64,000 nucleotides of DNA from a bacterium (GTDB taxonomy: Bacteria; SZUA-182; DTGQ01), in NCBI GenBank assembly GCA_040755755.1, contig JBFLZW010000033.1, forward strand, positions 62,001 through 126,000. Reading direction: 5' to 3'. Below are positions 15,726 through 32,645 of this stretch, piece after piece. A program made the position numbers and the translations under genes. Each line of letters begins with the position of its first letter. The first letter of the stretch is position 1. Under the pieces are notes generated by a model. It made no database searches. It saw nothing but the letters and a program-made list of their open reading frames with translations, and was not told where the DNA came from.

Positions 15726-16184
15726 TTAGAATATCTCGGCAGCGCTTTCTCGGGTGATATCACCATCGTTGGTGATCGAGTATGTCGAGTTGGGGGCAGT
15801 ATCATCGAGGTTTCCATAGGCCTTGGCTGTGAAGGCCGAGGTGTCAGCCGCAGTTACTTCATAGCTGTAGTATACTTTACCGGAAGGAGCAAAGCCGATG
15901 GCCGAAAATGCAGTAGCCGTGCTTGTCCATGCTACCGAGGTTGCGCCGGGAACAGAGGTTGGATACTGGGCGATAGTGCCGTAATAGGTCTCCTGTTCAG
16001 CCTTGTAAGCCTCTTCGCAGGTTCGGATCGATCCGAGATTGGCCTTGGCTTCCGAGGTCTTTGCTTTCAGCCGGAAAGTCATGAAGTTGGGGATGGCGAT
16101 AGCTGACAGAATACCGATGATGGCCACAACGATCATGAGCTCGATCAGGGTAAAACCTTGTTGGTTCTTCAGATTCCTTACCAT
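15726..16184 (-). CDS. Type IV major pilin-like protein
   Basis: A 152-residue prepilin. A short basic leader ends in QQG, followed by the cleavage/methylation site G|FTLIELMIVVAIIGILSAIAIPNF with Glu at +5, the hallmark of class IVa pilins processed by PilD. The rest is a small globular head. The start ATG 16184 was chosen because GAAAGGAGG lies 9 bases upstream; an ATG at 16202 lies before that site and is not used. No assembly genes are adjacent. It forms a pilus or pseudopilus fibre; which of the two is not certain. Confidence 0.92.
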   Translation of the reverse strand: MVRNLKNQQGFTLIELMIVVAIIGILSAIAIPNFMTFRLKAKTSEAKANLGSIRTCEEAYKAEQETYYGTIAQYPTSVPGATSVAWTSTATAFSAIGFAPSGKVYYSYEVTAADTSAFTAKAYGNLDDTAPNSTYSITNDGDITRESAAEIF

Positions 16185-17061
16185 GGTGGTGCCTCCTTTC
16201 AAGAGGTTGCAAAGTTAGAGTGAAAGAGAAACACAAAGATCAAGCACTCTCTTTTTCCGCAATCACGTTTCCCACGGGAACCCTCAAGCTCCACAACGAC
16301 CTTCTCTCATTCTGTTCCTTATGGATATCCCCCTTCTGATCAGGTGATTTCCCGTTGCTGTTTACGGCTTTATAGAAGAGCAAGAGTAATGCCACCTCTG
16401 TGATTTTGTATAAATACAGGGTTAAATGGAGTAATTATTACATAAAAACGAAAATATTTTAACCATCAAGACACTTTATGGAAAGAGTATAAATCGCCAC
16501 ATCGAAAACCCCTGTGGCAGCGAACATTGCCCCGCTAAAAACCATTTGGTTATCCGATTACTCTTTGGTAGTCAGGCAAGACATTTTTGTAAGTCACCCT
16601 TTTTCTCCTCGAATCAGGGGGATCAATATACCTTCACTTTTACTCTCTTCTAACACCATAATTTATCAATATTTACCCTAACATTACAACGAGACTTTCA
16701 CTTAATGATAGAGGAATGGTCATAATAAATCACCCCTTAACCACTGTGTCAGGCAACACACCTCCACTAACCATGCGCTTTCCCGAAGTTGTCCCCGGGG
16801 TTTCCCGATAAATAGATTGTTATCATAATCGCTCAAATATATTAGCCATTCCATTCATTATTTGGATTGGAGGCTTTTTAAAAAGTGTATTACCGTCTGA
16901 ACACGAGCGGCCATAATCACCTTTATATCGCTGTCGTATTTATATCGCTGTCGTAATTACCTGGAATTTACTAATCCAGCTTGTAGATGTAACTCCCAAT
17001 CTCTCTGTTGGGCAAGTTGAAAACGGATAAACAGATACCTTTGGAAACGGAGAGCTCTCCT
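16185..17061. other. Long AT-rich intergenic region between divergent genes
   Basis: About 880 bases between the divergent pilin and LysRS-like genes. No reading frame, tRNA or riboswitch core was recognised. A 17-bp perfect tandem duplication (16922-16955) is the only clear structure. Promoters for both genes presumably lie here; none is sharp enough to call. Confidence 0.4.
16922..16955 (+). repeat. Perfect 17-bp tandem duplication
   Basis: TTTATATCGCTGTCGTA occurs twice back to back (16922-16938 and 16939-16955), about 105 bases before the LysRS-like start. It could be a tandem operator or a recent slippage product. Confidence 0.85.
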
Positions 17062-18390
17062 ATGCCTGCCATGCTGAATGGCCATTCCCCGCGAAAGAAG
17101 AAAATCCCCTACATAGTAGCTACCGGTTTTACTACGGCCTTTCTGGGAGATGAGCGTTCTCTCCGGGAATTTATTATAGGGGATAAAATACAGAAAGATC
17201 TCGAGCGCACGGGCAGGAATACTGTTCTTTATCTCATCAATGACAGTTATGATCCCCTGAATTACCGTCAACTCAGAGTGGGTGTCAATAAAAATGAAAA
17301 ACTGCTGAGCCGCTTCGAGCACTATTGCGGCCGTCCCATTTCTGAAATTCCCGACCCATTCGACTGTCATGAGAATTATTCGCAGCACTTTACCCAGGCT
17401 CTCGTCAGGAGACTGCATTCCCTTGATATCTTTCCGCTCGTGCTTGACTCGTATCATGCTTACCGCAAAGGGTATTACGCGGATTTTATTTCCATTACTT
17501 TTGAAAACTATGCCAGGATGCAGGAGCTTCTCTCTCAGCGATTTACGAATTTCTCCATGAGAAACCTGTTTCGCATCCAGTGTCCCAAATGTTCCTCCAT
17601 TGACGCTACCCATATCTTTCAGGTAAAAGGCCGCGACATCCGGTTTGGCTGTGAGCGCTGCAATAAATCGGATATGGTTCAGAGTATCGATGAGGTTCGC
17701 GGCAAGCTGAGCTGGAAGCTCGATTGTGCAGCCCGCTGGAACCTGTACGGAATCGACCTTGAGACCTTTTCCAAGGCTCACGTGGCCGAGCTGGGAAGCT
17801 TCGCTATCTCCCGCTTCTTATCTCAGCAGTTTTACGGAGGCAAAGTTCCTGCTATCGTACGGTATGGTGATGTAATGTTAGACCGGGAGCTCTCCTTCAG
17901 GCTTCTGGAGATTCTTCCTCCCCCGGTTTTCAAGGCACTTTTCTCCGTAAACCGCCGGCGGGATCTTCTGCTGACCAGGGCCTCTGTGGAAAATTTCTGC
18001 CGGGAATATCCGGTTCGGCCCGGATTGAGTTATGTCGATTATATACGCAGGGAACTTCCGAAGCAGGCTGTCCATGAGAAGAATTTGAATGGATCAGATC
18101 TTGAGCTGCACACTCTCTGCAATACACCCCGGGGATTGATTGAAGAAAAGTCCCTGGTAGCCTATGGAAACCGCTTTTCCCGGTTTTATTACGGCAGGGA
18201 GTATAAGATTCAACTGCCTGAGGCCGATCTTATCGGCTCTGTAGACCGGGAAACAGCCCGGACGGCCAGGGGAATTATCCTCTATGTTCTGTTTGTGCGG
18301 GAAAGTCAGGGAATTGACGGCCAGCAGGATGTCCATGACCTTATCAGGTCTTATCTTCACTCGGAGAAGCCCTCTCCCAGGCTTCTGTAA
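17062..18390 (+). CDS. Class I lysyl-tRNA synthetase-like protein lacking HIGH and KMSKS, ended by an in-frame TAA
   Basis: Homology to class I (archaeal-type) LysRS is visible in order: IPYIVATGF at the start of the Rossmann fold, GRPISEIPDPFDCHENYSQHF (close to [22 protein letters not shown]-type motifs), a CPKC...CERC zinc ribbon, and KLSWKLDCAARWNLYGIDLE. Where relatives have HIGH (HVGN) this protein has LGDERS, and where they have KMSxSKG it has GDVMLDREL. Aminoacylation is therefore unlikely. ATG 17062 is preferred (GGAGAG 7 bases upstream) over TTG 17008. Translation stops at TAA 18388-18390, but homologous sequence continues in frame for 62 codons. It lies upstream of a sensor/c-di-GMP operon. 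Confidence 0.8.
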   Translation: MPAMLNGHSPRKKKIPYIVATGFTTAFLGDERSLREFIIGDKIQKDLERTGRNTVLYLINDSYDPLNYRQLRVGVNKNEKLLSRFEHYCGRPISEIPDPFDCHENYSQHFTQALVRRLHSLDIFPLVLDSYHAYRKGYYADFISITFENYARMQELLSQRFTNFSMRNLFRIQCPKCSSIDATHIFQVKGRDIRFGCERCNKSDMVQSIDEVRGKLSWKLDCAARWNLYGIDLETFSKAHVAELGSFAISRFLSQQFYGGKVPAIVRYGDVMLDRELSFRLLEILPPPVFKALFSVNRRRDLLLTRASVENFCREYPVRPGLSYVDYIRRELPKQAVHEKNLNGSDLELHTLCNTPRGLIEEKSLVAYGNRFSRFYYGREYKIQLPEADLIGSVDRETARTARGIILYVLFVRESQGIDGQQDVHDLIRSYLHSEKPSPRLL

Positions 18391-18579
18391 TATCTGCGAA
18401 AGATCCTTGGGCAGGCTGACGGCCCCAATATCGCAACTCTGCTGGCCATTCTGCCCAGGGATTATCTCAACGTGGTTCAGACCCTCCTTGGCTATTATGC
18501 AGAGCAGGAGCCGCGAGACAGAAATCAGGGCGCAGAACAAAAGCCTGCCGGCAATATTCCAGTCCTCTTGAGAAACTGA
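18391..18579 (+). pseudogene. In-frame C-terminal remainder of the LysRS-like gene, after the TAA
   Basis: The frame of the preceding gene stays open for 62 more codons and ends with TGA at 18577-18579. The sequence YLRKILGQADGPNIATLLAI followed by LPRDYLNVV matches the extreme C-terminus of class I LysRS (family pattern ...YRLLLGKERGPRLASFLAALDR.FV). Adding it gives about 505 residues, the normal family length. The stop is thus likely a point mutation, a sequencing error, or a readthrough site. No ribosome site would allow independent translation. Confidence 0.7.
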
Positions 18580-18610: not shown

Positions 18611-19450
18611 ATGAAGAAACTGATGTATTACTTCTGGCCGGTGCTACTCATCATCCTTATTCTGGGCTGCCAGAAGGAAAGCGAACAGGGTTCATACCCT
18701 GGCCAGAGAGGACAGGATTTCTCTCTCGAAAGGGTGAAGAAGGCCGGTGTCCTGTTGTGGGGGGCTGATGTGATCGGCGGAGTTCCCTACGTTTACCAGG
18801 ATCCTAACAGGCCGGGCATGTATGTCGGCTTTGAAATGGACATAGCCGAGGCCATTGCCCGGCATCTGGGAGTAAGACAGAAATTAGTCATCAAGGCATG
18901 GGATAACCTTATTCCGGAACTGCAAAAGGAGAGCTTCGACATAGCCATGAACGGTATCGAGGATACCGAAGACCGAAGAAAACTGGTTCTTTTTTCAGAA
19001 CCTTACTTTGTCTACTCTCAGCAGATCACTGTTAGACAAGAGACCGAGGGGATCACTACCCTGGAAGATCTGCGGGGGAAAAAGGTAGCCACCCTGTCCG
19101 GCACAGCGGCTGAGGACCTTTTGCGCAGAGAGGCCGGAATCGAAGTGACGATCAATCCGGAAATCATCTACAGCTACCGGGATCTGGAAGATGGCCGGGT
19201 GGATGCGGTTCTCCTTGATAAACCTATTGCCGTAGCCTACGGTGCCACAAACCCGAAATTGAAAAATGTCGGAGAGTCTTTTGAAGAAGGCACCTATGTA
19301 ATTGCCGTGCGCAGGGAGGATAAAGCACTCCTCGATGCTGTTAATGCTGCCTTGAAGAGTATGAAGGAGAGCGGTGAACTGGCAAAGATTTTTCAGCGAT
19401 GGGGTATCATGGATGAGCATCAGAAGCGGATCGGAATCAGTGCAAAATGA
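18611..19450 (+). CDS. Periplasmic amino-acid-binding lipoprotein (SBP_bac_3 family)
   Basis: A 279-residue lipoprotein. The lipobox LILGC places the lipidated Cys at residue 19. The mature domain is a family 3 solute-binding protein: GVLLWGADVIGGVPYVYQD, then GFEMDIAEAIARHLG, FDIAMNGIEDTEDR and LEDLRGKKVATLSGT. Such proteins bind polar amino acids or opines. No permease or ATPase gene is nearby, so a sensory role (handing ligand to the kinase encoded at 20912) is plausible but inferred. GAGGAGGGA lies 6 bases before the ATG. The gene ends in an ATGA overlap with the next. Confidence 0.9.
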   Translation: MKKLMYYFWPVLLIILILGCQKESEQGSYPGQRGQDFSLERVKKAGVLLWGADVIGGVPYVYQDPNRPGMYVGFEMDIAEAIARHLGVRQKLVIKAWDNLIPELQKESFDIAMNGIEDTEDRRKLVLFSEPYFVYSQQITVRQETEGITTLEDLRGKKVATLSGTAAEDLLRREAGIEVTINPEIIYSYRDLEDGRVDAVLLDKPIAVAYGATNPKLKNVGESFEEGTYVIAVRREDKALLDAVNAALKSMKESGELAKIFQRWGIMDEHQKRIGISAK

Positions 19451-20889
19451 GCAGCATATACGGAAACCTGATCAATAATGCCATTTCGAGCCAGGGGATC
19501 CCCCATGAAGTAATCTCGCCGGTGACCGGCACATCTCTTGGCATTGTACCTTTAGCCACACGAGAAATCATTGGTCAGGCACTCTCGACCTTTGCCGGAC
19601 AGCCGCCTGTGCTGCCGAAAAAGGAAGTCTTTGCCTTTCTTCAGCGGCTGAAAGAGCAGCTTCTGCTCAGGCAGGACCTTTTGCTGGAGAAAACCTGCCT
19701 TGAAACCGGCTTTGTGGTCCGGGACAGCAGGGAAATCGTCAACAGTTCGATAGAGTTTTTGCAGGATTTCGAGATTTACGTTCAGGACAAAGCTTTCAGG
19801 GAGCAGATCATCAGGCATTCCTATTCGTGCGTGTCCAAACGGGACATCCGGGTAACCCAGCGCCCTTTTCGCTGCGTGGCGGCAGTTGTTCCGCAAAACG
19901 CATCCCTTTCACTCAGTATTATCATCATCGCCTCGGCCCTGTATGCCGGATCGCGCGTTATCCTGCGGCCTTCACTGCAGAACGGTCCAACCGGCTCACT
20001 TCTGGCCGAAGCGATTGCCATGAGCGATCCGCCGCCGTCACGGATCATTATCGTTAATTGCCTGGCCAGGGATTTTATCGATGCCTGCTGTGCTTCGGAA
20101 TCTGTGGACCTGATTCATTATATCGGAAGCAATCAGTATGCCCAGCCGGTTTTCATGCAGACATTTGAGGCCGGAAAAGTCTGCATCCTTGACGGCCAGG
20201 GCAACGGCCTTCTCTACCTGGATGATACCTATCCCAGGGAAGATGCGGTTCGGATTATCGGCCAGGGAGCTACCCGTTATAATGGAGAGACCTGTACCTC
20301 CATTAATGGTGTTTTAACTAAGGATACGATATACCGGCAGGTCAGAGATGCCCTGGTCGATTATTTCCAGACCTTGCGGATGGGAAATCCTCAGGATCCC
20401 GAGATTCAGATCGGCCCGCTTTTCAGTGAGAAGCAGGCACTGATGCTGCAAAGGGCTATTCGGGAAACACCCGGAGCCAGGATTTTGTGCGGCGGCGATG
20501 TCGAGGGAGCATATTTCAGACCGGCAGTAGTGGAAGGGATCAGTCCTCATGATCCCATCGTTCGTGAGGGAGTGTTCGGGCCGGTCATCTGGATCCGGAG
20601 TGTGACTGAGGACAGCCTGTGGGACTGGCTGGAAGGAAACCAGTTTCCTCTCAGTGATACGATCCTGAGTACTGACGGCGATCTCATCCGCTCTTTTGCC
20701 GTAAATTCCAGGGCAGCCAGGATTTGCGTCAATGAAGATCCATCGGTGGAGTCCATGTTTGAACCCTGGGGCGGATATCCTCCCAGCGGGCTGAATCCCG
20801 TGTCGGTCTGGATAGAAAAGTACCGGCAGACGTTCCAACTGGACGGCAGGCTGAGGGAAATAATGACCATTCCGTTTTCAGGAGAGTAG
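19447..20889 (+). CDS. Aldehyde dehydrogenase-superfamily protein with atypical active site
   Basis: A 480-residue protein of the NAD(P)-dependent aldehyde dehydrogenase fold. The catalytic Cys lies in YNGETCTSING (about residue 284) and the oxyanion Asn in VVPQNASLS. The usual general-base Glu of the LELGGK motif is absent: the aligned segment reads ILDGQGNG. The cofactor-binding KPSE is RPSL. This suggests altered chemistry (such as thioester or acyl transfer) or a non-catalytic binding role. Substrate is unknown. It overlaps the upstream lipoprotein gene by 4 bp and precedes the kinase by 22 bp, so it belongs to this signalling operon. Confidence 0.82.
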   Translation: MSSIYGNLINNAISSQGIPHEVISPVTGTSLGIVPLATREIIGQALSTFAGQPPVLPKKEVFAFLQRLKEQLLLRQDLLLEKTCLETGFVVRDSREIVNSSIEFLQDFEIYVQDKAFREQIIRHSYSCVSKRDIRVTQRPFRCVAAVVPQNASLSLSIIIIASALYAGSRVILRPSLQNGPTGSLLAEAIAMSDPPPSRIIIVNCLARDFIDACCASESVDLIHYIGSNQYAQPVFMQTFEAGKVCILDGQGNGLLYLDDTYPREDAVRIIGQGATRYNGETCTSINGVLTKDTIYRQVRDALVDYFQTLRMGNPQDPEIQIGPLFSEKQALMLQRAIRETPGARILCGGDVEGAYFRPAVVEGISPHDPIVREGVFGPVIWIRSVTEDSLWDWLEGNQFPLSDTILSTDGDLIRSFAVNSRAARICVNEDPSVESMFEPWGGYPPSGLNPVSVWIEKYRQTFQLDGRLREIMTIPFSGE

Positions 20890-20911
20890 CGGTCAGTTCT
20901 GAAAGGCAGCC

Positions 20912-22801
20912 ATGAAAAAAATTACTTCCTTCTCAATAAGAGGCAAGATGATAGCCATGGTGGCCGGATCTCTCCTTCTGGCCATACTGTCTGCCGCTTA
21001 TATGATCAGGGGCCTGGTTTACCAGAATATTGTGGATCAGAAGATGACAACTGCGGAGATCCTCACCGCCTCACTGGTCCACGATATCAAATATGAATAT
21101 GACCTTCGGCTCGGAGACCCGGAAGGTTTCAAGGACATTGTCAGAAAATATATGACCTACCATCGAATTATCAAGTCCATTTCCCTGTATGATAGTAAGT
21201 ATACTAACCGGGCGGATTCTGATCCGGAGAATGAAGGGACAGTCACCCGGGACGAGGATCTGATCAGAGCCATTAACCTGGCCAGACCCAGCCTTAAGAT
21301 TACCCGGTTTGACCGGACGAGGCTTGGCATCCGCTCCATTTTTCCTATCCTTCGGGGTTCCAGGGTTATTGCCGCCATTGAGATGCATATTTCCATCAAG
21401 GACATTGAGGCCATCATGACAGCTATCGACCGGCGGATCATCACCATTTTGGTCTTTACGATCATGGGAGCCAGTATCGCTTTGTATATCCTGTTGCGCA
21501 GGGTAATCCTCCAGCGGCTCAGCCGGTTGATGGAAGTAACCCGGCTGATTGCAGCCGGAAATTATAATATTCAGGTCAGTGATATCCACAGCGATGAGCT
21601 GGGGCAACTGGCCCAGGCATTTAACCATATGACCCTCGAGCTGAAAAAATCGAAGCGGGAAATCGAGGACTACAACCAGCATCTGGAATCCAAGGTGCAG
21701 GAGGCAACTGCTCAACTCAACAAAGCTTACGAGGATCTCAAGAACACCCAGAGCCAGCTTGTTCTGAATGAGAAGATGGCCTCTCTTGGTGTTCTTATTG
21801 CCGGAATAGCACATGAGATCAATACTCCGGTTGGAGCTATCAATAATGTGGCCAGGAATCTCGAACATCGGATTACTTCTCTTCCCCAGGCGCTTGAATC
21901 CTTCAAAAAGGACCAGAACGTACCTGCCGATAACCTGGTTGAGTGCTTTCAGGACCTGATCCGGGTCTCGGCCAATGGCCCGCAGGTTGCCACCTTTCAG
22001 GAGATACGCAGGGTAGAAAACCTCTTGAAGGAACAGGGTATCGCGAACTACCGGGGAACGGCCGGAACCCTGGCCAAGTTCAACTTTATGGACCCGGACA
22101 AGGTCAGGCGGTTTGCTGATCTTTTTAAGAACTCTTCTCTTTTCTCCCTCCTGGAATCCATAGGAAGTATCTCGCAGGCTACCAGGATCGTCCAGACAAG
22201 TTCCCGGAAGATCGAGGAGATTGTTCGGGCGCTCAAGTACTATGCCTATACTGATAAGGACAGAATTGAAATGACCCAATTGAACGAGTCGGTCAATACT
22301 GCCCTGGTCCTGTTGAACAACAGGCTGAAACACAGGGTGACGGTGACTTCGGAATTTGACCCGGATCTGCCGGAGATACCCTGCACCAGCGAGGTCCATC
22401 AGATATGGACCAATCTTCTGAACAATGCCTGTGATGCTATCGATGCCATGGGCGATGGCTGGGAAGGAAAAATTGCCGTTTGCACCCGCAGGATGAATGA
22501 TCGAATTGCAGTTACGGTAACTGACAACGGGATCGGGATTCTGGAAGACAAGATAGGAAGAATATTCGATCCCTTCTTTACCACCAAGGATATTGGCAAG
22601 GGGACCGGCCTTGGATTGTCGATTGTCTCCGGTATCATCAAAAAGCACAAAGGAGCGGTTCGCGTGGAAAGCAGACGTGGTCATACGGTTTTTGAAATCA
22701 CCTTTCCGATCAAGGCTGAATCATCAGTGCCTGAATCCGAGCAGCCTGGAGAGAAACAGGAAGAAACGGTGAAGGAGGAGGCTTTGAGCAATGCCTACTG
22801 A
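20912..22801 (+). CDS. Membrane sensor histidine kinase with HAMP and extended DHp region
   Basis: A 629-residue kinase: TM1 (about 13-32), a periplasmic sensor of about 140 residues, TM2 (about 175-197), HAMP (198-250), coiled coil, phosphoacceptor His 301 in GIAHEINTPVGAI, and a HATPase with NNACDAIDA, DNGIGI, FDPFFTTK and GKGTGLGLSI. The distance from His 301 to the N-box is about 200 residues instead of about 110, indicating an insertion in the DHp helices. The last 11 bp overlap the next gene, whose receiver is the obvious partner. Ligand input could come from the 18611 lipoprotein (inference). Confidence 0.92.
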   Translation: MKKITSFSIRGKMIAMVAGSLLLAILSAAYMIRGLVYQNIVDQKMTTAEILTASLVHDIKYEYDLRLGDPEGFKDIVRKYMTYHRIIKSISLYDSKYTNRADSDPENEGTVTRDEDLIRAINLARPSLKITRFDRTRLGIRSIFPILRGSRVIAAIEMHISIKDIEAIMTAIDRRIITILVFTIMGASIALYILLRRVILQRLSRLMEVTRLIAAGNYNIQVSDIHSDELGQLAQAFNHMTLELKKSKREIEDYNQHLESKVQEATAQLNKAYEDLKNTQSQLVLNEKMASLGVLIAGIAHEINTPVGAINNVARNLEHRITSLPQALESFKKDQNVPADNLVECFQDLIRVSANGPQVATFQEIRRVENLLKEQGIANYRGTAGTLAKFNFMDPDKVRRFADLFKNSSLFSLLESIGSISQATRIVQTSSRKIEEIVRALKYYAYTDKDRIEMTQLNESVNTALVLLNNRLKHRVTVTSEFDPDLPEIPCTSEVHQIWTNLLNNACDAIDAMGDGWEGKIAVCTRRMNDRIAVTVTDNGIGILEDKIGRIFDPFFTTKDIGKGTGLGLSIVSGIIKKHKGAVRVESRRGHTVFEITFPIKAESSVPESEQPGEKQEETVKEEALSNAY

Positions 22802-25118
22802 AAATGGCATGGATATAGATAACGCTCCACAATCTGACCCCGTAGAGCAACTGGTCATCTGTGTGGATGATGACCAGAATTTCCTGAAATCATTGGAGTT
22901 TTTCCTTCCGGAAAGAATCAATCAGGAAACGGATGGGCAGGTCTGGTACCGGTTTCTTTTTTTTGACAATCCCTTCAGTTTTCTCGATACACTCAGGGAA
23001 CTGGTGGAAAACCGGGAAACGGTGGCTATGGTTATCAGTGACCAGAAAATGCCCCTTATGAAAGGAATAGAGCTCCTGGCTGAGGTTAAAAAGATTTCCC
23101 GGCAGAGCATCCGGGTTCTCCTGACCGGCTATGCCGGGATGGAATCAGCCATTATGGCTATCAATGAAAACCTGCTGGATAAGTACCTCACCAAGCCAAT
23201 AGAGGATGAGCATGACTTCATTATCAGCATCAGGCACCTGCTCCAGAAATTCCGGATGCAGGGCACAATTACCGCCCAGGCCAGGATTATTCATGAACTG
23301 TACCAGTTTGCCAACGTCCTGAACGGGATTGAGGATTTTCAAAAGACCCTGGACTACATTGTCTCCTTCACCGAAGAAATGCTGAAATGCCAGCGGATAT
23401 CCATAATGCTTGACGAGGGCGGCCTGCTTCGGATCAAAGCATCACGGGGCGTTCCGGAAGAGGTAGTCAATTCAACCAGCATACCGATCGGAGAGCGGAT
23501 ATCGGGTGAGGTTTTTCGGTCTAAAAAGGCGATTCTGGCCAAAAGCCTCGATCAGGTCCCATATCTCGACGGCATGGTTGAAGTCAATGCCCGGTCCTTC
23601 ATCAGTATACCCATTCTTCTGGTCGGCCTGACTTCGGGAGATCAGCCCCTTGGAGTGATCAACGTTACCTGGAAAGAGGATAATCTCTCCTTTACCGAAA
23701 ATGATCTGGAGATACTGACCTATATCGCCAATACGGCATCCATTGCCATCCATAACCAGATCAACCGCATCCGGCTTCAGAGGGCTTATGTCGAAACCAG
23801 GACCCAGGCAGCAGCGCTTGAATATCAGTCCATGCACAATACCCTGACCGGGCTCCCGAACCGGAACATGCTCAAAGACCGGATGCGGGAGGCTATTGTG
23901 GCCGGACAGGGCGAAGGAAAGCCATTTGGACTGCTTATCATGGATCTGAACCGGTTCAAGGAGATCAACGATACCCTCGGCCATAACAGTGGTGACATTC
24001 TGCTCCAGCAGATCGGACAAAGACTGCGGGAAATACTGCCGGAACAGAACCTTCTGGCCCATCTGGGCGGCGATGAATTCGCCGTGCTGCTGCCGGGCGC
24101 AGATTTGGAGAGAGCAACCCGGGTTGCACACTGTATTCTTCAGAATTTCAGGCAGCCATTTATCCTTGAAGGATTATCGCTGGAAGTCAGTATGGGCATT
24201 GGCCTGACTCTCTATCCCGAACACGGAGAAGATGTCAACCTTCTCATCCAGAGGGCTGATGTAGCCATGTATCTGGCCAAGAATAGCGGGAGCGGCTACT
24301 CTATTTATGACCCCGGACGTGATCAGTACAATCACCGCCGCCTGGCCATGGTCGGCGGACTGCGCCGGGCTATCGACAATAATGAACTGGTTCTGTATTA
24401 TCAGCCCAAAATAGACATCGAGACCGGCCATATTTCCGGTGTGGAGGCGCTGGTACGCTGGCAGCATCCCCAGTATGGTTTTATGCCTCCTGACCAGTTT
24501 ATCCAGTTGGCTGAGCAGACTGACCTGATCGGGCCGCTGACCCTGTGGGTGCTGAATGAAGCACTGCGCCAATGCAGCCGGTTGTGCAGCCAGGGCCTGA
24601 ACCTCACCATGGCAGTCAACCTGTCCGCGCGAAACCTCCAGGACGAGAATTTTCCCGACCAGGTAAAGAGCCTGATCGAAAAATGGGATATAAGGCCGGA
24701 CCTCCTGGAACTCGAAATCACCGAAAGCACTGTCATGGCCAATCCGGAGCTGGCCATGTCCATTCTCAACCGCCTGAGTGACATGGGCATTTGTCTGGCC
24801 ATTGACGATTTTGGCACCGGCCATTCTTCTCTGGCCTATGTCAAGAGATTACCTGTTCATGAGATCAAGATCGATAAATCCTTTGTCATGAGCATGGGAG
24901 TGAACAGCAGCGATGTCATGATCGTGAATACCGCCATCGACCTGGGTCATAATCTTGGGCTTTCCGTGGTGGCCGAGGGAGTTGAAAATAGAGAAACATA
25001 CGATCGCCTGGCCACGCTTGGCTGCAATGTGGCTCAAGGGTATTTTATGAGCCGCCCCCTTTCGGCAGACCATCTTATGAGATGGATAAACGAGTCGCCC
25101 TGGGGCCTGAAAAGTTAA
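22791..25118 (+). CDS. Response regulator REC-GAF-GGDEF-EAL, c-di-GMP turnover
   Basis: A 775-residue protein. It has a receiver domain (about 18-150) with phosphoacceptor Asp 84 in VISDQKMPL and a GAF domain (about 165-330). A GGDEF domain follows with intact HLGGDEFAVLL (about 425) but no RxxD inhibitory site five residues upstream. The EAL domain has intact GVEALVRW, DDFGTGHSSL and KIDKSFV motifs. It should both make and degrade cyclic-di-GMP, gated by phosphorylation from the preceding kinase. The start ATG overlaps the kinase gene by 11 bp with GGAGGAGG just upstream, indicating translational coupling. Confidence 0.95.
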   Translation: MPTENGMDIDNAPQSDPVEQLVICVDDDQNFLKSLEFFLPERINQETDGQVWYRFLFFDNPFSFLDTLRELVENRETVAMVISDQKMPLMKGIELLAEVKKISRQSIRVLLTGYAGMESAIMAINENLLDKYLTKPIEDEHDFIISIRHLLQKFRMQGTITAQARIIHELYQFANVLNGIEDFQKTLDYIVSFTEEMLKCQRISIMLDEGGLLRIKASRGVPEEVVNSTSIPIGERISGEVFRSKKAILAKSLDQVPYLDGMVEVNARSFISIPILLVGLTSGDQPLGVINVTWKEDNLSFTENDLEILTYIANTASIAIHNQINRIRLQRAYVETRTQAAALEYQSMHNTLTGLPNRNMLKDRMREAIVAGQGEGKPFGLLIMDLNRFKEINDTLGHNSGDILLQQIGQRLREILPEQNLLAHLGGDEFAVLLPGADLERATRVAHCILQNFRQPFILEGLSLEVSMGIGLTLYPEHGEDVNLLIQRADVAMYLAKNSGSGYSIYDPGRDQYNHRRLAMVGGLRRAIDNNELVLYYQPKIDIETGHISGVEALVRWQHPQYGFMPPDQFIQLAEQTDLIGPLTLWVLNEALRQCSRLCSQGLNLTMAVNLSARNLQDENFPDQVKSLIEKWDIRPDLLELEITESTVMANPELAMSILNRLSDMGICLAIDDFGTGHSSLAYVKRLPVHEIKIDKSFVMSMGVNSSDVMIVNTAIDLGHNLGLSVVAEGVENRETYDRLATLGCNVAQGYFMSRPLSADHLMRWINESPWGLKS

Positions 25119-25131
25119 GGTATCTTTCACC

Positions 25132-27114
25132 ATGCAGAAGATTTCCCGAAACGAGCTTATTGTCAAAATCAAAGAAGATATTCCTACTTTGCCCATAATT
25201 GTAACCCGCATTCTGAACATCGTTCTGGATGACAAAAGCTCTGTCAAAGACCTTACCGAGGTTGTCCGGGTAGACCAGGCCCTGGTTTCCAAGGTGCTGA
25301 GAGTAGTCAATTCCGCGGCTTATGCATTGCGGGAAAAGGTCAGTACGGTAGATCATGCCATGACCATACTTGGCTACGATGCCCTCAAGAAGCTGTTTTT
25401 ATGCTTCTCGGTATTCGATAACCTGGCCCAGGAGAACAAGGCCGGCTACCTTTTCCCGAAATCCCAGTTCTGGTGCCATTCTCTGGCTGTGGCTACGGTA
25501 GCGAAAAGCATTGCCTCGCTGATCAAATACCCTAATCCTGATGAGGCCTATGTAGCCGGTCTTTTGCACGATGTGGGCAAGATCATCATCGAGCAGATCA
25601 TGGTTGATGAGTATCTTGCCTACATGAAGAATTTGAATATGAACCCGGACATGTCTCTGCACTTCGAGGAAGAAAACCTGTCGGTTAATCATGCTGAAGT
25701 CGGCAAACTGGCTTTTGAAAAGTGGAACCTTCCTCCGGCTTTGCAGAAAGCTGTCGAGCTGCATCATGGCCCGGAAAAAGGCCATGTGGACATCCATGAG
25801 CTGGCAGCTATCGTTTCCGTGGCTGACTTTATCTGCTGGACCCAGGCCCTTGGCTCATTCAACTTCTTTTTTCATCCCACACTCAATCCCGAAGTGGAAA
25901 AGATCGTTAATCTGAATACTTTAAAGATTGAACCGATCCTGGACGAGATGAACAGGGAAGTGGCCCTGAATGCCAAGATATTCAACCTCCAGATAAACGA
26001 CCTGAAGGGATTCAGAGAGGCTCTCCAAAAGGCGAATCTTGAACTGGGAAGAATTAATTCACTGTACGACGATACCAGAAAGAGACTGGAAAAACATATC
26101 CATGAGCTGAACACCCTGAACACGATTACCTATAAAGCGCGGGAGACTCTGAAACCATCCGAAATCATCCAGAATGCTCTTCAGGGGGTAAAAGAAGGTC
26201 TTGGTTTTCCCCGGCTTATCTGGTTTTCCGTGGACCCGCAGAAAAAAATGATCATTCCCCAGGCATCCTGCGGCGAGTTTCCCGACAATACACCTCTTAC
26301 AACCCTGGGCCTGTCTTGGGATGACGAGATCGGGGCTCTCCTGTCCACCTCTATCCGGGATAAAAAAATCCTTCATCTGAAAAATGGTCAGAGTGAATCG
26401 GTGCCTGAGATTAACTTCCTGAAGGCGTTGCAAAGCAGCAACACACTGCTGGTCCCAATCAGGACTGATCAAAAAGTTAACGATCTGCTCCTGATCGATA
26501 ATCATGATAACAGTGTGGCCATCTCCTCCGATACGATCAAAGTAATCGAGATTCTGGCCCTGAATCTGGGAATGGCCCTGGAAAATGCCAAACTGTTTCA
26601 GTGCACCGCTCAGATGGCGGTAATTGATTCCCTGACCGAAGTCTATAACCGGCGTCAACTGGATTCCTCATTGAGCAACGAGGTGAACAGATCGGCCCGC
26701 TTTCAGCAAATATTTTCGATCGCTCTCTTTGATATCGATCACTTCAAAGAGGTTAACGACACCTATGGTCATCCGGTGGGTGATCTTGTCTTGAAGGATG
26801 TATCTGCAATTATTAAAAGCAACTCCAGGAATATCGATATCGTCGGAAGACTCGGGGGCGACGAATTTTTAGTTATTCTGCCCAATACGGAGATACAGGG
26901 GGCTCTCACCTTTGCTGAACGGGTCCGGGTCATCGTGGAAAGATACGGACTACTCAGGCAGAAAAATTTCCCCAAATGCCAGATCACGCTCAGCATTGGA
27001 CTGGCGTCATTCAATAACGCCATGGATACACCTGAAAGGCTTTTGAATAAAGCGGATAAGGCTCTCTATCAGTCCAAGCAGAAAAGAAATAAAGTCACCG
27101 TGTATCGGGAATAG
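25132..27114 (+). CDS. HDOD-GAF-GGDEF protein, probable diguanylate cyclase
   Basis: A 660-residue protein. An HDOD domain (about 10-215) retains the HD signature GLLHDVGK (about 145). A coiled coil (about 265-325) and a GAF domain (about 330-490) follow. The GGDEF domain carries GRLGGDEFLVIL and an intact inhibitory site RNID five residues upstream, so product inhibition is expected. It lies 13 bp after the GGDEF-EAL gene and probably ends the operon. HDOD proteins generally act in signal relay rather than as hydrolases. No terminator is evident in the 90 bp before the convergent DUF499 gene. Confidence 0.94.
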   Translation: MQKISRNELIVKIKEDIPTLPIIVTRILNIVLDDKSSVKDLTEVVRVDQALVSKVLRVVNSAAYALREKVSTVDHAMTILGYDALKKLFLCFSVFDNLAQENKAGYLFPKSQFWCHSLAVATVAKSIASLIKYPNPDEAYVAGLLHDVGKIIIEQIMVDEYLAYMKNLNMNPDMSLHFEEENLSVNHAEVGKLAFEKWNLPPALQKAVELHHGPEKGHVDIHELAAIVSVADFICWTQALGSFNFFFHPTLNPEVEKIVNLNTLKIEPILDEMNREVALNAKIFNLQINDLKGFREALQKANLELGRINSLYDDTRKRLEKHIHELNTLNTITYKARETLKPSEIIQNALQGVKEGLGFPRLIWFSVDPQKKMIIPQASCGEFPDNTPLTTLGLSWDDEIGALLSTSIRDKKILHLKNGQSESVPEINFLKALQSSNTLLVPIRTDQKVNDLLLIDNHDNSVAISSDTIKVIEILALNLGMALENAKLFQCTAQMAVIDSLTEVYNRRQLDSSLSNEVNRSARFQQIFSIALFDIDHFKEVNDTYGHPVGDLVLKDVSAIIKSNSRNIDIVGRLGGDEFLVILPNTEIQGALTFAERVRVIVERYGLLRQKNFPKCQITLSIGLASFNNAMDTPERLLNKADKALYQSKQKRNKVTVYRE

Positions 27115-27205: not shown

Positions 27206-30200
27206 TTACCGCAATTGAATATTCTTTGAAATGCCTGCCAGTATTTCATTGACCTTCTTCACCAGTTCAGCAGAAGGTGGAGGATCGCCGCCAAGCTCGA
27301 TACGGAGCCGGAATTTCAGATCGTATCCGACCGCAGCCTCGACAAGATCACTGATTATTTCGGCAAGGTCCTGTATCTCATGGGATTTCAGTTCAGCTTC
27401 GCCCGCAGCCGCACCTGGCCTCAACGCATCGGGTGGCTGTATTGGTGGCTTTGAGGTTGATACGGTCGATGGAGCGGCTGGTGCCTGTGTCTGCCTGTTG
27501 CCCGGAATTCGCAGCTTTACTTTCTGCGCCTCCGAGTAGCCGCATGGCCAGGGGCCGGAATCCAGGGTAAGCTCCAGCAGCCGCGCCCGGATTGCTCCAT
27601 CAATGGCTTCCCGCACCGTTCGCCAGGGGTAAGGTTTTCCGGCCTTGTCGGCCAGGGCATTAGAGATCGCACAAGCGGTCGAAGTCTGGCAGGCTTGAGC
27701 AGAACCAGCACCAGGCTGGCCAGCCAGGCCAGTCGGGCCGGGCAGAGTACTCCAGGCCTGTGGGAGATTGGCAGGCAGAATCCCCATAGCTGTGATGCTC
27801 GGTGGAGGCCCCTGCAATCTTGCCTCTTCGGTCAAAAGTCCCGGCGGGACTTCTTCGGCCCACAGGCTCGATGGGCCGCAGATCAGCCAGAGGCTGCCGT
27901 TCTGGATGGCTTTACCGATAGCTGCATCGACCACTGCCTTCTCTGCCCCCGGGATGGTTATTGGCTCCTCATAGCCACTTTTCCTGATCTTCACCACATG
28001 GCCGCCGGAGAAATAGCCATAGACATCCCTGATCGTTATTTCAGCATCTTCCCGAACTCCTGCTATCTCTCCCCCGTCCCGAAGCCCGGATGCTCCCGCT
28101 CCGTCCCAGAGCCCTGGAAGCACGCCGGGGGACAGCAGGGCAGGGGAAATCTCGGTAAGCATTGCTGCTTCAGGCAGTACAACCTCAAGGCCAGGGTCCT
28201 TGAGAGATGCCTCGTCCGGCTCCTGCCGCCAGAAGGTCTTGACGGAGCGGTCAGGCCGGGTGGTCTGAAGGACAAAAAAACCCTCTCTGGCTCCCAGGGC
28301 CAGGGTGCCAAGAATCTCTTTCTGGCGCAGCATCTTCGGCAGATGTGGAAATTGTGCAAACGATCCCACCAGGTCTTTTACCCACCGGGAGGTTTCACCC
28401 TCACGCCATAAATTGTACGGGCCATCCGGAAGCAGGGCATCGGCACTGATCAGGGTATCCTGAATCCGTGATCGTTTATCATCCTTGATAATGGTAAAGA
28501 GCGGCCTGTCATCTATTGATACCTTTAAGGCCTGGACTTCGTTCTTGTCAGAGACCGTCACTGCGATGCAGTATGCCTGCCGGATAGCGTCAGGGATTTT
28601 CTTCTGGGCAGCCTCGATATTTGCGCTCAGCACCTCAGAACGGACAGGGTCGATATCCTGACCCTTGAGCTGAGACCGTACCTCTTCCCAGCCGAGATAT
28701 TCCCGGATGGCGTTGCAGGCGATATCAAGACCATCACGGGATGGAACCACAAGTACCAGTGCATTGCGAAATTTTCGCGGATGGCTGGCAGCAGTGGTTT
28801 CTTCAATAAAGCGGACAGCCACCGGGTTGGGTTTTCCGGGATCGGACACAGTTTTTGGTCCCAGGACAGCATAGTGAAACTCTCCATCATCCTCGATTTC
28901 CTTTGGCCTCACCGGCATCATATGGACTTTTGCCCCGGCAGCGGATGCACCCGCGGTCAGGCTCTTGAGCCTGCTGATTTCCTTGAGGAGCCTGTCCTCG
29001 ACCATCTCAGGCGGAACGCGGATGCAGGCATCATGATGCATTTGCTTCAGGTTTGGCCTTGATCCCAGCCGCCATGATTTTGGGAGCTGTTTTTGCCCAT
29101 CAGGTCCAATATCAGCATCATTGACTGCTCCTTCATCCAGGAACCAGGACACCTCGGTCCATCGGTGCAGTGCCTTTTCCAGTTCGATCTTGTCAGGCCG
29201 GGTGGCACCCAGAAGGAGCATCAACTCCCGCCTCAGCGCTCTGTGGCCAATGGGCTGTGAGTGCAAAAACGTAGCCAGCACCGCCTGCTCGACTTCCCGG
29301 AACATCACCCCGGCCACTTCGGTCTGGATCTGGCAGGCCTTGGCCAGTTCCCCTTCGAGAATCCCTGTCCATTCCTGCTTCTTTCCCTCATATTCTTCCG
29401 TGGCTGCAATGGTGGTCAATTCCCTGGCAGCTTCGCCGATCCCTGTGCTTCCGGCTCTGCCACCCAGAAAGACATTGGCTGCAATCAAAGGACACTCGTC
29501 CCATTTTTCAGCATCGCGCAGGGCCAGGGCAAAGGTTCGTAATACTCCCCGGGTGCGCTGAAAACCTTCCATGTTGGTCCACTTGGTGTAAAAAACCTCC
29601 GTCAGATCGGGATGGAACGGATAACTTTTCAAAAACCGCTCTTCGGCCATCTTCCCATCCTTGCGGGTCTGCTCGTCAAAAGCTGCAATACCCTTGAGCG
29701 CTGCAACCACATGAGGCCGGAAAGCCTCCCGGTCCCGGATGGACTCAGGGCTGAAGAAGCGCCGGCGCAAAACCTCGGCCACATCTTCCTTGGCCACAGG
29801 CTGCACGCCCTCCTCCCGCTCCCGGCGGAATATGGCGTAAAGCTCCTGGGTAATCTCTTTTCCCAAGGAATCGCTCTTTCTGGGATCTGTGGCCAAAAGC
29901 GAGGCCACAATTGCGCACCGGTCAACCTTGGTTGCCGCCTGGGTAAGATACTGGAAGAAGTTGATGAGTTTTCCCCTCCAGGCCGGATCAAGACCGATCC
30001 TCTCCCGTGCATACATCAGGGCCTCATCGATAAGGATCAGGGTCGAGCAATCCTCTTTCTCCCCCGGGATTGAAAAAAGGCTTTCCAGAAGGTTTTCGGC
30101 AGGGGCACTGTCCCGCTCATCATCCCTGTCCTCAGCATGAAGCAGCCGCAAGCCCTCTGCTCCCGCAAGCTGAAAGGCAAGCACACTCCAGGGGTTCTTC

Positions 30201-30670
30201 AGCCACCGGATGCTGCCATCGGGGCTTTTGACCTCCATTCCCTTTTCCACATCGAGCTTATCAAAGGCAAGCACAGCTATACGGGCTTTGGGAATCGGCA
30301 ATCCTATGTGCTGTATGAACTCCTGGACAGCGGGCAGGTCCGGCAGCCCTGCCGGATCATTGACCAGATGAAACAAAGTGATCAGGGTATGGGTTTTGCC
30401 CCCGCCATAGGTAAGCTCAAGCTGGCGCACGGCTTTGCTGTTTTTTCCTGCCAGCCGACCGACGACATCTCTGGCCAGTTCGCGAAGATTAAAGGTGGGA
30501 TAGGTAAGCGCAAAAAAATCGTGCGGATTCTGATAGACAGAGCGTGCTTTTCCCATAGTCACGTCATAGAGATCCGCAGCAAAAACAGCCAGGGAAAGCT
30601 CGCCTGATCTCAGGTCATCCCGGATCTGGACAACCCTGTGCCAGGGTGTCCACGGCAGTGGTCTACTCAT
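27206..30670 (-). CDS. DUF499-type P-loop ATPase of a defence island
   Basis: A 1154-residue ATPase. It has the N-terminal segment WHRVVQIRDDLRSGELSLAVFAADL, Walker A LTYGGGKTHT (about 86-95) and Walker B STLILIDEALMYARE (about 208-222), followed by a long alpha-rich body and a C-terminal Pro/Ala-rich linker before a final LRIELGG-type domain. This is the DUF499 family found with DUF1156 methyltransferases and helicases in anti-phage islands. GGAGGA lies about 8 bases before the ATG. An octamer repeat and a large hairpin lie directly upstream. Its core partners here are separated from it by toxin-antitoxin genes. The molecular role is not known. Confidence 0.88.
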   Translation of the reverse strand: MSRPLPWTPWHRVVQIRDDLRSGELSLAVFAADLYDVTMGKARSVYQNPHDFFALTYPTFNLRELARDVVGRLAGKNSKAVRQLELTYGGGKTHTLITLFHLVNDPAGLPDLPAVQEFIQHIGLPIPKARIAVLAFDKLDVEKGMEVKSPDGSIRWLKNPWSVLAFQLAGAEGLRLLHAEDRDDERDSAPAENLLESLFSIPGEKEDCSTLILIDEALMYARERIGLDPAWRGKLINFFQYLTQAATKVDRCAIVASLLATDPRKSDSLGKEITQELYAIFRREREEGVQPVAKEDVAEVLRRRFFSPESIRDREAFRPHVVAALKGIAAFDEQTRKDGKMAEERFLKSYPFHPDLTEVFYTKWTNMEGFQRTRGVLRTFALALRDAEKWDECPLIAANVFLGGRAGSTGIGEAARELTTIAATEEYEGKKQEWTGILEGELAKACQIQTEVAGVMFREVEQAVLATFLHSQPIGHRALRRELMLLLGATRPDKIELEKALHRWTEVSWFLDEGAVNDADIGPDGQKQLPKSWRLGSRPNLKQMHHDACIRVPPEMVEDRLLKEISRLKSLTAGASAAGAKVHMMPVRPKEIEDDGEFHYAVLGPKTVSDPGKPNPVAVRFIEETTAASHPRKFRNALVLVVPSRDGLDIACNAIREYLGWEEVRSQLKGQDIDPVRSEVLSANIEAAQKKIPDAIRQAYCIAVTVSDKNEVQALKVSIDDRPLFTIIKDDKRSRIQDTLISADALLPDGPYNLWREGETSRWVKDLVGSFAQFPHLPKMLRQKEILGTLALGAREGFFVLQTTRPDRSVKTFWRQEPDEASLKDPGLEVVLPEAAMLTEISPALLSPGVLPGLWDGAGASGLRDGGEIAGVREDAEITIRDVYGYFSGGHVVKIRKSGYEEPITIPGAEKAVVDAAIGKAIQNGSLWLICGPSSLWAEEVPPGLLTEEARLQGPPPSITAMGILPANLPQAWSTLPGPTGLAGQPGAGSAQACQTSTACAISNALADKAGKPYPWRTVREAIDGAIRARLLELTLDSGPWPCGYSEAQKVKLRIPGNRQTQAPAAPSTVSTSKPPIQPPDALRPGAAAGEAELKSHEIQDLAEIISDLVEAAVGYDLKFRLRIELGGDPPPSAELVKKVNEILAGISKNIQLR

Positions 30671-30717
30671 CTTGGGAATCCTCCAAAAACAATCGGTGCC
30701 GGATTCGGGAGGTTATG

Positions 30718-30749
30718 ACTCCCTTACTCCCTTACTCCCTTACTCCCTT
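30718..30749 (+). repeat. ACTCCCTT octamer repeated four times
   Basis: Four perfect tandem copies of ACTCCCTT, 48-79 bases upstream of the DUF499 start codon. On the coding (minus) strand the unit reads AAGGGAGT. Its position fits promoter or leader spacing, so changes in copy number could alter expression. Confidence 0.95.
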
Positions 30750-30783
30750 TTAATAACCTCAAAACCTGCGAGAGAAAGGGATA

Positions 30784-30819
30784 TTTTCTCCCTCTCCCCT
30801 TCAGGGGCGAGGGAGAAAA
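30784..30819. repeat. C/G-rich palindrome, dispersed hairpin type
   Basis: TTTTCTCCCTC-T-CCCC (30784-30799) pairs with GGGG-C-GAGGGAGAAAA (30804-30819) over TTCA, with one mismatch. Related purine/pyrimidine palindromes occur near 49496-49516 and 55680-55710. It may end transcription from the toxin-antitoxin genes or be a mobile intergenic repeat. Confidence 0.75.
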
Positions 30820-30891
30820 GCGCTACTCTTTCTCAAGGGTAAGATTCATATTCTGAAACAGTCGATGGGTAAGATAACATTGTCAAGATTG

Positions 30892-31122
30892 TCATTTGCC
30901 ATATATCAACGTATCAACATTGGTTGATGTATCAGTAAAATCAGACTCAACTGCACCTTTAAACTGAAATAACCGTTCCTTTTGACTTTGCGGTCTATTT
31001 TCCTCCCGGCCACCGGTGAGAGGCAGAATAATAACTTCAACCTCTTGGTTATTTAATGCCTCTAATTCCTTCAGTGCAATAGAGCCATTTTTAATAGTTG
31101 TTATTTTTTTTATTGCTTCCAT
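30892..31122 (-). CDS. Small antitoxin-like protein, partner missing
   Basis: A 76-residue protein. MEAIKKITTIKNGSIALKEL followed by EVEVIILPL resembles small DNA-binding antitoxins that precede PIN-domain toxins. No toxin follows; the next sequence is the hairpin and octamer upstream of the DUF499 gene. It starts 3 bp after the HEPN gene. It is AT-rich like its upstream neighbours. Function unproven. Confidence 0.5.
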   Translation of the reverse strand: MEAIKKITTIKNGSIALKELEALNNQEVEVIILPLTGGREENRPQSQKERLFQFKGAVESDFTDTSTNVDTLIYGK

Positions 31123-31125
31123 ACA

Positions 31126-31516
31126 TTATCCTTTCAATTTTCCTAATACCCGTTTAACTTCTGATAATATTTTTTGAGCATCGATAATCTGCAGCTCTGC
31201 TTCTTCTTCGCTGACAACTATGAAATCTCCATAATCTCCCTCTTCACGAATATCCTTTGCTTTGGCTATTATTTTGCCACATTCCTTTCCAACAACACCT
31301 TTACTTACAAAGTGAAGATTAAATAATGAGATTACTCCGGAATGCTTTGGGCTATCCATATTCTTTGTGGCCAGTAAATGCCTTGACAGCAGAAAGCATA
31401 GCATAATAAGATCTGGATACGGAATCTTTATATTTTTTACTTTTTAAAAGAATAATAGCAGATTCTAATTTTTCTTGAGCCTCTTTTAACCGGTACTCGG
31501 ATAGCTCATTATTCAT
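31126..31516 (-). pseudogene. hepT: HEPN-domain protein, frameshifted
   Basis: From ATG 31516 the frame reads MNNELSEYRLKEAQEKLESA and on to SVSRSYYAMLSAVKAF, the start of a HEPN (UPF0332-like) protein, then ends at a premature TAG. The rest of the domain, LATKNMDSPKHSGVISLF to REEGDYGDF and the C-terminus, continues in another frame to 31126. The shift lies near 31375 in GCATTTACTGG; restoring two T's (or removing one base) gives a normal domain of about 130 residues. HEPN proteins paired with MNT are ribonuclease toxins. The start overlaps the MNT stop (ATGA). Either truly broken or a sequencing error in a T-run. Confidence 0.75.
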
Positions 31517-31851
31517 AAGTTGATCCCCTCATGGTCAATGTGTTGAGTAAAGGGGCTTTTCATCTCTTCATTTTTTTTATATTCATACAGGGAAAAGAGA
31601 ATGAGAGAAATCTTATATTCATAATATGGATCAAGTTCAAATAAGATATTATATATTTCATCGCGTACCGCTATGGTTTTCCTATTCACAACGATAAGGA
31701 TATCTATATCTGAATCCTGAGTGAAATCTCCTCTTGCTTTTGAACCAAACATTTTTATAAAGATAAGATTATCACTAAGCTTTTCTCTGAGTTGGCTGGC
31801 AAACTTTTCTAGTATTTTTTTTCTTCTAAAGCTATGGTCATCTTTAATCAT
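31513..31851 (-). CDS. mntA: MNT-type minimal nucleotidyltransferase (antitoxin of an MNT-HEPN pair)
   Basis: A 112-residue minimal nucleotidyltransferase with the motif FGSKARGDFTQDSDIDILIV, including the GS and paired Asp residues. In characterised pairs this enzyme adds AMP to the HEPN toxin and so silences it. The start ATG 31851 has AAAGGAA upstream; the frame is open to 31917 but that part overlaps the upstream PIN gene. It overlaps the downstream HEPN gene by 4 bp. With the HEPN gene frameshifted, the antitoxin has no intact local target. Confidence 0.85.
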   Translation of the reverse strand: MIKDDHSFRRKKILEKFASQLREKLSDNLIFIKMFGSKARGDFTQDSDIDILIVVNRKTIAVRDEIYNILFELDPYYEYKISLILFSLYEYKKNEEMKSPFTQHIDHEGINL

Positions 31852-31910
31852 TATTCCTTTCTTTGTGCAGCCTCTGGTGCTTCTTGTGTGGCCATTGTAG
31901 CTAGCCTTTA

Positions 31911-32309
31911 CTACCATAATAAATGTAATCCAAATTTCTTGTAATTATTCATTTCTTCGTCTTTTGAAATCAAGACTATATTCCTTTTTATTGCCTGCCA
32001 AATTATTAGTCTGTCAAATGGATCTTTATGTTTTATCTTAGGTAATTGATAAAAACTCGATGTTTCTTCTGCTGATATCCCTAATGTCTCAATTCCTATT
32101 TCTTGTGCCTTAATTGGTAACTCATCAGGGCTAATTCCCTCGAGCTCTAATTTGCCGATGGAATATTTTAGCGATATTTCCCAATATGTTATGACACTTA
32201 AATATATTTCATTCTCTGGCTCCCTTACAATTTTTTTTACTTTTTCAGATAGCTTATCATCATCAAACAGCACCCAGAGAAACGAGTGAGTATCGAGCAG
32301 ATATTTCAT
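31911..32309 (-). CDS. PIN-domain toxin (VapC-like)
   Basis: A 132-residue PIN-domain protein. Acidic metal-binding positions are visible in LLDTHSFLW (Asp 6), TYWEISLKYSIGKL and KHKDPFDRLI. These enzymes are Mg-dependent ribonucleases. The gene overlaps its antitoxin by an ATGA junction. This subtype (DTHxFLW) is normally paired with Phd/YefM-type antitoxins, as here. AT-rich relative to the defence-island core genes. Confidence 0.88.
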   Translation of the reverse strand: MKYLLDTHSFLWVLFDDDKLSEKVKKIVREPENEIYLSVITYWEISLKYSIGKLELEGISPDELPIKAQEIGIETLGISAEETSSFYQLPKIKHKDPFDRLIIWQAIKRNIVLISKDEEMNNYKKFGLHLLW

Positions 32310-32545
32310 AAAGATAGCAATTCCTCATCCGTTATTGCAAAATCATCCTTTATTTTATAACTTGCTTTTCCTTTTAAGATGCCAAGAGGTCTTTCCATTC
32401 TTTTTTTATATTTGTTGTAAGGAATTATAACTGCGACTATTTCTTTATCCTTTTCAGTACTTACCTCAACTTCCTCACCGCTTTTTACTATATCTAAAAT
32501 TTTAGAGAAATTATCCTTTACTTCTTTATAGGTGAATATTTTCAT
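32306..32545 (-). CDS. Phd/YefM-family antitoxin
   Basis: A 79-residue protein with the Phd/YefM fold start MKIFTYKEVKDNFSKILDIV and the strand EEVEVSTEKDKEIVAVIIPY. The C-terminal half should wrap the PIN toxin encoded by the overlapping next gene and the N-terminal half should bind the operator. The ribosome site is weak (AAAGGG about 12 bases upstream). Confidence 0.82.
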   Translation of the reverse strand: MKIFTYKEVKDNFSKILDIVKSGEEVEVSTEKDKEIVAVIIPYNKYKKRMERPLGILKGKASYKIKDDFAITDEELLSL

Positions 32546-32608
32546 CTGGTCTTTATCCCTTTAATTATGCTCGCTCATATGCGATAACCATTACACCATC
32601 ACTCGTGG

Positions 32609-32645
32609 ATTCCCGCTGCCACAGAGTGCCCTGCTTCGCGGGAAT
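32609..32645. repeat. ATTCCCGC/GCGGGAAT palindromic repeat
   Basis: ATTCCCGC (32609-32616) pairs with GCGGGAAT (32638-32645). The same arms occur inside the MITE-like element at 49099-49270, so this is a dispersed intergenic repeat family. It separates the toxin-antitoxin cluster from the methyltransferase gene. Confidence 0.7.

Follow-up and report, generated by a model that had tools for sequence, protein, structure and literature searches.

LuxP-LuxQ is a sensory pair in which a binding protein works through a histidine kinase. A binding protein working through a histidine kinase is likewise found in XylFII-LytS, as cited in PMC9602780. In ScrABC of Vibrio parahaemolyticus, an aminotransferase, a binding protein and a GGDEF-EAL enzyme are encoded in one operon, with the aminotransferase making the ligand (PMC11315295). 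The binding protein of the NspS-MbaA systems of Vibrio and Sinorhizobium acts on a membrane receptor and alters c-di-GMP (PMC8967002, PMC9993111), and in Salmonella the arginine-binding protein ArtI and the Cache-domain receptor STM1987 are needed for a change in c-di-GMP (PMC8846402).

The gene cluster described here, found in a stretch of bacterial DNA of 64,000 nucleotides (hereafter the window), is closest in logic to ScrABC, NspS-MbaA and ArtI-STM1987, but is not a member of these types because a kinase and a receiver (REC) protein intervene: its receptor is a histidine kinase, and the GGDEF-EAL module sits on a separate REC protein. With ScrABC it shares the single operon, a cytosolic enzyme, a transporter-free periplasmic binding protein and a GGDEF-EAL output, while it differs in the kinase and REC placed between receptor and output, in an output that can be swapped, and in the presence of an aldehyde dehydrogenase (ALDH) and a lysyl-tRNA synthetase (LysRS)-like protein where ScrABC has an aminotransferase. 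The route from binding protein via membrane receptor to a change in c-di-GMP recalls NspS-MbaA. MbaA is, however, itself a c-di-GMP enzyme, NspS senses polyamines, and no kinase, ALDH or LysRS-like gene takes part. Similarly, ArtI-STM1987 combines an amino-acid binding protein with a Cache-domain receptor and alters c-di-GMP, but STM1987, with its dCache domain, acts directly as a c-di-GMP enzyme, and ArtI is a transporter-type protein.

As in binding protein (SBP)-dependent two-component systems, a binding-protein gene occurs together with a kinase and a REC regulator, an association that is conserved here. We rate the cluster as a form of SBP-dependent two-component system with two added partners, the LysRS-like protein (g0) and the ALDH (g2). 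LuxP-LuxQ and XylFII-LytS have binding proteins of other families and are not known to have a conserved ALDH or synthetase-like partner, and we know of no other SBP-dependent two-component system with partners of the g0 or ALDH type. The earlier note on this DNA was aware of no described system with this gene set; none was found in the limited open-access literature searched, which also yielded no paper on a LysRS-like protein in signal transduction.

Organization of the locus

The cluster is encoded on the forward strand of the window and comprises the following features:

17008..18390, + strand: g0, class I lysyl-tRNA-synthetase-like protein (Pfam PF01921 tRNA-synt_1f, 3e-43; motif alignment; conserved position)
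18391..18579, + strand: remainder of the g0 frame past a TAA codon, 62 codons and a TGA (homologous to the C-terminal region in relatives of g0)
18611..19450, + strand: g1, SBP_bac_3 lipoprotein (PF00497 SBP_bac_3, 2.9e-34)
19447..20889, + strand: g2, divergent aldehyde dehydrogenase family protein (PF00171 Aldedh, 6e-59, well above the cut-off)
20912..22801, + strand: g3, sensor histidine kinase, TM - single Cache (WalK-like) - TM - HAMP - H-box His301 - HATPase (Pfam, predicted fold)
22791..25118, + strand: g4, response regulator REC-GAF-GGDEF-EAL (Pfam Response_reg-GAF-GGDEF-EAL)
25132..27114, + strand: g5, HDOD-(GAF)-GGDEF protein (Pfam HDOD-GGDEF, GAF weak)

The five open reading frames g1 to g5 lie on the strand and with the overlaps and gaps at which the earlier note had placed them: g1 and g2 overlap by 4 bp and g3 and g4 by 11 bp, while gaps of 22 bp and 13 bp separate g2 from g3 and g4 from g5, respectively. 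Its domain calls for these genes are also borne out by Pfam, the HisKA match of g3 and the GAF match of g5 being weak, and its picture of a transcription-unit-like array with a binding protein, a kinase and a response regulator agrees with both the packing and the conserved gene order. The five-gene boundary that it drew, however, has to be moved, as g0 is located directly upstream on the same strand and belongs to the unit; only 31 bp lie between the end of the g0 frame (TGA 18577-18579) and the g1 start.

Several other gene sets surround the cluster. A type IV pilin-like open reading frame (GFTLIELMIVVAIIGIL; 15726-16202, - strand) is found about 800 bp upstream on the opposite strand, and CRISPR genes for Cas_TM1802 (Cas8-type), Cas7 and Cas5 are present at 49-3530 on the + strand. 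Directly downstream, an Hma-type defence set occupies 27206-42332 on the - strand and includes an HmaC-like ATPase (27206-30670, - strand; DUF499), an HmaB-like DUF1156 methylase (33937-35850) whose match is limited to roughly the first 614 of the 973 model positions and which is followed by a further 396-aa open reading frame, an HmaA-like helicase (38661-42332, - strand) and an internal AAA_14/DUF4143 open reading frame. Three giant repeat proteins are encoded at 42981-62103, namely a 2000-aa LVIVD-repeat protein and proteins of 1667 and 1989 aa with CarboxypepD_reg/fn3-like repeats.

Conservation and distribution of the cluster

A scan of contigs based on the ALDH identified seven loci (54-67% identity), three of them in Nitrospirae, one in a member of the Chromatiaceae (a gammaproteobacterium), two in Eisenbacteria and one in an unassigned bacterium. 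The cluster is present in nine genomes, belonging to the genus of the window genome, the Nitrospirota, the Eisenbacteria, a gammaproteobacterium and another phylum, with identities of 44-83%. The earlier note had let its proposal stand or fall by the conservation of gene order in relatives, and comparison by tblastn with the six proteins showed that the order g0 - SBP - ALDH - HK - REC is kept in distant relatives as far as their contigs reach. Where enough contig is available, the histidine kinase follows the ALDH in 9/9 loci, the SBP lies ahead of the ALDH in 8/8 and g0 ahead of the SBP in 6/6. Behind the kinase, an orthologous REC gene comes next in all seven loci that have an ordinary kinase and contig left, the contig of L004 ending within the kinase gene. 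In G001, a relative from the same genus, g0 to g4 are complete and are followed by the start of g5 and the contig end.

The outputs are more variable than this sensory half. In the gammaproteobacterial locus L002 (1223-5368), the Cache-HAMP sensor is kept in a hybrid kinase that carries two REC domains and an Hpt domain, and an unrelated REC protein follows, making this locus a clean example of output swapping. Six loci have a REC domain with 49-84% identity to that of the window, but its fused outputs differ: a GAF-GGDEF-EAL module follows in the window, G001, L005 and L001 (cut within the EAL domain in the latter), whereas L007 has GAF-HD-GYP and L003 a kinase module, of which L006 shows a weaker, partly masked version. 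Furthermore, g5 was seen only in the genus of the window genome. Because the same REC carries different outputs, c-di-GMP is a frequent output and not a constant part of the cluster, and an operon tied solely to c-di-GMP was rejected. The emphasis that had been laid on c-di-GMP thus shifts to the sensory half as the conserved module.

The identities of g0, SBP, ALDH, HK and REC covary across ten genome pairs (r 0.85-0.98), which together with the conserved order rules out chance neighbours. Between two species of the genus, dN/dS is 0.08-0.12 for g0 to g4, with dS near saturation. The ALDH family is rare, being found in 3/296 Nitrospirota, 2/47 genomes of the Eisenbacteria phylum, 1/7 of the phylum of L003 and 1/369 of a gammaproteobacterial sample, as well as in two of the 386 genomes sampled around the window genome, both from its own genus; it is missing from two other genera of the same family. 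The matches in these prevalence samples correspond to loci already recovered by the contig scan and include no further members. This patchy distribution, combined with high identity, suggests that the whole unit may have spread by horizontal transfer, and the correlated identities are as would be expected if the five parts move together. A plasmid-borne cluster was discarded, the ALDH having no match among 72,556 plasmid records at a threshold of 1e-40, as was a defence system, g0 and the ALDH having no match in PADLOC.

The binding lipoprotein, sensor kinase and c-di-GMP proteins

The N-terminus of g1 (MKKLMYYFWPVLLIILILGCQ) is a plain lipobox (LILGC), and among solved structures it comes closest to binding proteins of the glutamine and arginine type and to ancestors reconstructed for that family. 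Arg122 (the Arg of TEDRR) is invariant among the g1 proteins, and the Asp of VDAVLLD is kept wherever the sequence is unmasked. Both align with the anchor positions which, in the SBP_bac_3 family, we take to hold the alpha-carboxylate and alpha-amino groups, respectively. Our guess from these anchor residues is that the ligand is of the amino-acid type.

The earlier note had described g1 as a lipoprotein without a transporter, a view that a co-occurring transporter elsewhere in the genome would have contradicted, and a HisM/HisQ-type polar-amino-acid permease scoring over the TIGR01726 cut-off is indeed found in 0/9 cluster genomes, which are drafts with two sub-threshold matches, as against 11/14 control genomes. 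The case for absence of the permease from these nine draft genomes is strong but not absolute, and an ordinary ABC importer whose permease is encoded apart from g1 is left unsupported.

The first 260 residues of g3 have a confidently predicted fold (pLDDT 82) consisting of TM - single Cache - TM - HAMP, with the sensor being closest to the extracellular domain of WalK (Foldseek, 5e-7). The H-box HEINTP is located at His301, and HAMP and HATPase_c domains are recognized by Pfam. In g4, the phospho-acceptor motif SDQKMP and the GGDEF, EALVR and DDFG motifs are intact, with no RxxD I-site before GGDEF, and g5 combines an intact GGDEF motif with an RxxD inhibitory site. By their motifs, both proteins look competent as c-di-GMP enzymes.

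The lysyl-tRNA synthetase-like protein

The called start of g0 is a TTG codon, with a probable ATG at 17062. An in-frame TAA at 18388-18390 interrupts the frame, beyond which another 62 codons lead up to the TGA. The same-genus relative G001 (locus L053) has a Gln at the position of this TAA and an intact g0 of 510 residues, and the stretch YLRKILGQADGPNIATLLAILPRDYLN in the frame past the TAA is nearly identical in this relative. The window copy has therefore either undergone a nonsense change recently or been misassembled at this codon, and recoding of the stop is unsupported. Given the stop, the last 63 residues may be dispensable, at least in the window genome.

Homology of the catalytic fold and a zinc ribbon are evident from the PF01921 match, alignment with residues 19-274 of the class I LysRS of PDB 1irx (E 1.1e-23) and four invariant Cys residues. 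A large part of the class I LysRS core is retained in g0 (GxT, WxxD....RW, KxH and the zinc-type Cys pairs), including parts of the amino-acid pocket, but the protein differs from 1irx in lacking HIGH and KMSKS, in a new conserved insertion and in a diverged C-terminal part. The HxGN (HIGH-type) motif, which all 11 true class I LysRS have, is replaced by DERS, DERT or DERL in 5/5 members of the g0 family, and the KMSKS-type motif, which reads MSSSKG or MSSSTG in 11/11 true enzymes, is missing from the same five. In a tree with the eleven true class I LysRS, the five usable g0 members form one clade (support 100/100). The true class I LysRS of the window genome is encoded on a separate contig, and g0 was rejected as a second working copy on the basis of its missing synthetase motifs.

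The motifs specific to g0, VATGFTTAFLGDER (GDERxLREF) and RQLRxGVNKDE, are kept between phyla, and the comparison within the genus gives g0 a dN/dS of 0.086 at a nearly saturated dS. With these values, and with the stop confined to the window copy, g0 was rejected as a decaying pseudogene. We consider g0 a repurposed synthetase for which, judging from its motifs, tRNA charging is very unlikely. As several motifs of the pocket region survive, the protein may nevertheless still bind an amino acid.

The divergent aldehyde dehydrogenase and alternative roles for g0 and g2

The g2 family forms one clade (support 100/100), and its branch measures 3.2 changes per site. Cys283 and Asn151 are invariant in all alignment rows and align with the catalytic residues of 8hap. 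The general-base Glu column is occupied by an invariant Asp249, and the cofactor Glu column of EIFGP by Gly. Since the usual catalytic Glu is an Asp and the second conserved Glu a Gly, g2 may not be an ordinary enzyme, although it is plausibly active, on an unusual substrate or through unusual chemistry.

As the family-level matches of g2 are aldehyde dehydrogenases from many catabolic pathways, the locus could be read as ordinary two-component control of amino-acid or aldehyde breakdown, with a catabolic g2 and g0 as a bystander. Such a regulon is highly improbable, given that other catabolic genes occur in none of the clusters, that the outputs are c-di-GMP enzymes or kinases and not transcription factors, that g2 forms a separate clade on its long branch, and that g0 is found wherever a cluster has room for it.

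The occurrence of enzyme-like genes and a receptor in one conserved unit would also be consistent with self-signalling of a quorum-sensing-like kind, comparable to ScrABC and LuxS-LuxPQ. Here g0 and g2 would make a secreted amino-acid-derived signal, such as an amino aldehyde or a cyclised product, to be read by the lipoprotein-kinase pair. Invariance of the nucleophile Cys283, Asn151 and Asp249 favours this possibility, and ScrABC provides a precedent in which a binding protein and a c-di-GMP enzyme occur together with an enzyme that makes the signal. Furthermore, an outer-membrane-barrel-like gene (a weak Gcw_chp match, below the cut-off) is located directly upstream of g0 in L003 (2012-2725) and L001 (2-334), two loci from different phyla whose barrel-like products are 58% identical over 103 residues. 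However, this gene is missing beside the window and G001 clusters, a distant copy being found on another contig of the window genome, and the unit has no exporter. In addition, both ATP-handling motifs are lost in 5/5 g0 members, which makes amino-acid activation by known chemistry unlikely. We regard self-signalling as rather unlikely. A broader proposal is also unlikely, namely that of a chemical-communication module, self-contained and horizontally spread, whose amino-acid-derived extracellular signal is made by a repurposed class I LysRS and an ALDH and read by a dedicated lipoprotein-kinase pair, the outputs being interchangeable.

The same two proteins could instead be sensory pseudoenzymes that inform the kinase or the REC protein of the amino-acid or redox/aldehyde state of the cytosol, with g1 reporting the outside level, so that inside and outside are compared. 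The LysRS core of g0, without catalytic motifs yet with conserved motifs of its own, and the deviation of g2 from the normal catalytic residues would fit such a role. A pure sensor, however, would not need the invariant Cys and Asn of the ALDH, no fused sensory link to the kinase is present, and the predicted structure of g0 is too poor for use (AlphaFold, pLDDT 58). This comparison of inside and outside levels we judge improbable.

A proposed transporter-free sensory module

Our preferred reading, to which we assign roughly even odds (a probability of about 0.5), is that the cluster is a dedicated two-component module which, without a transporter, senses a ligand of the amino-acid type outside the cytoplasm, with g2 and g0 as regular members. 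In this module, g1 would bind its ligand outside the cytoplasm and, in its ligand-loaded or empty form, would contact the single-Cache domain of g3. Adjoining sbp and kinase genes may be functionally unlinked, as for AgtS and AruS, which showed no binding to their neighbours (PMC11113362), but the conservation of the cluster across phyla argues for a lipoprotein-kinase link, which is plausible. We infer a phosphotransfer from g3 to the REC domain of g4, and the phosphorylated REC would in turn alter the output fused to it, which in the window would be c-di-GMP synthesis or breakdown by the GGDEF-EAL module, with g5 as a putative second diguanylate cyclase alongside g4. For g2 and g0, as predicted regular cytosolic members, two readings are live, namely the making or conversion of the ligand, as in ScrABC, and cytosolic sensing. 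We favour the former and infer that g2 would make or convert the ligand class, as ScrA does in ScrABC, while g0 would be an amino-acid-binding protein and not a synthetase.

The cluster provides a small set of proteins open to direct expression and testing. In it, a descendant of a tRNA synthetase and an ALDH are fixed as parts of a signalling unit, of which the sensory half stays the same across phyla while the output is exchanged. If g2 or g0 makes the ligand, the cluster would represent a new bacterial signalling system; if these proteins sense, it would represent a new use of pseudoenzymes.
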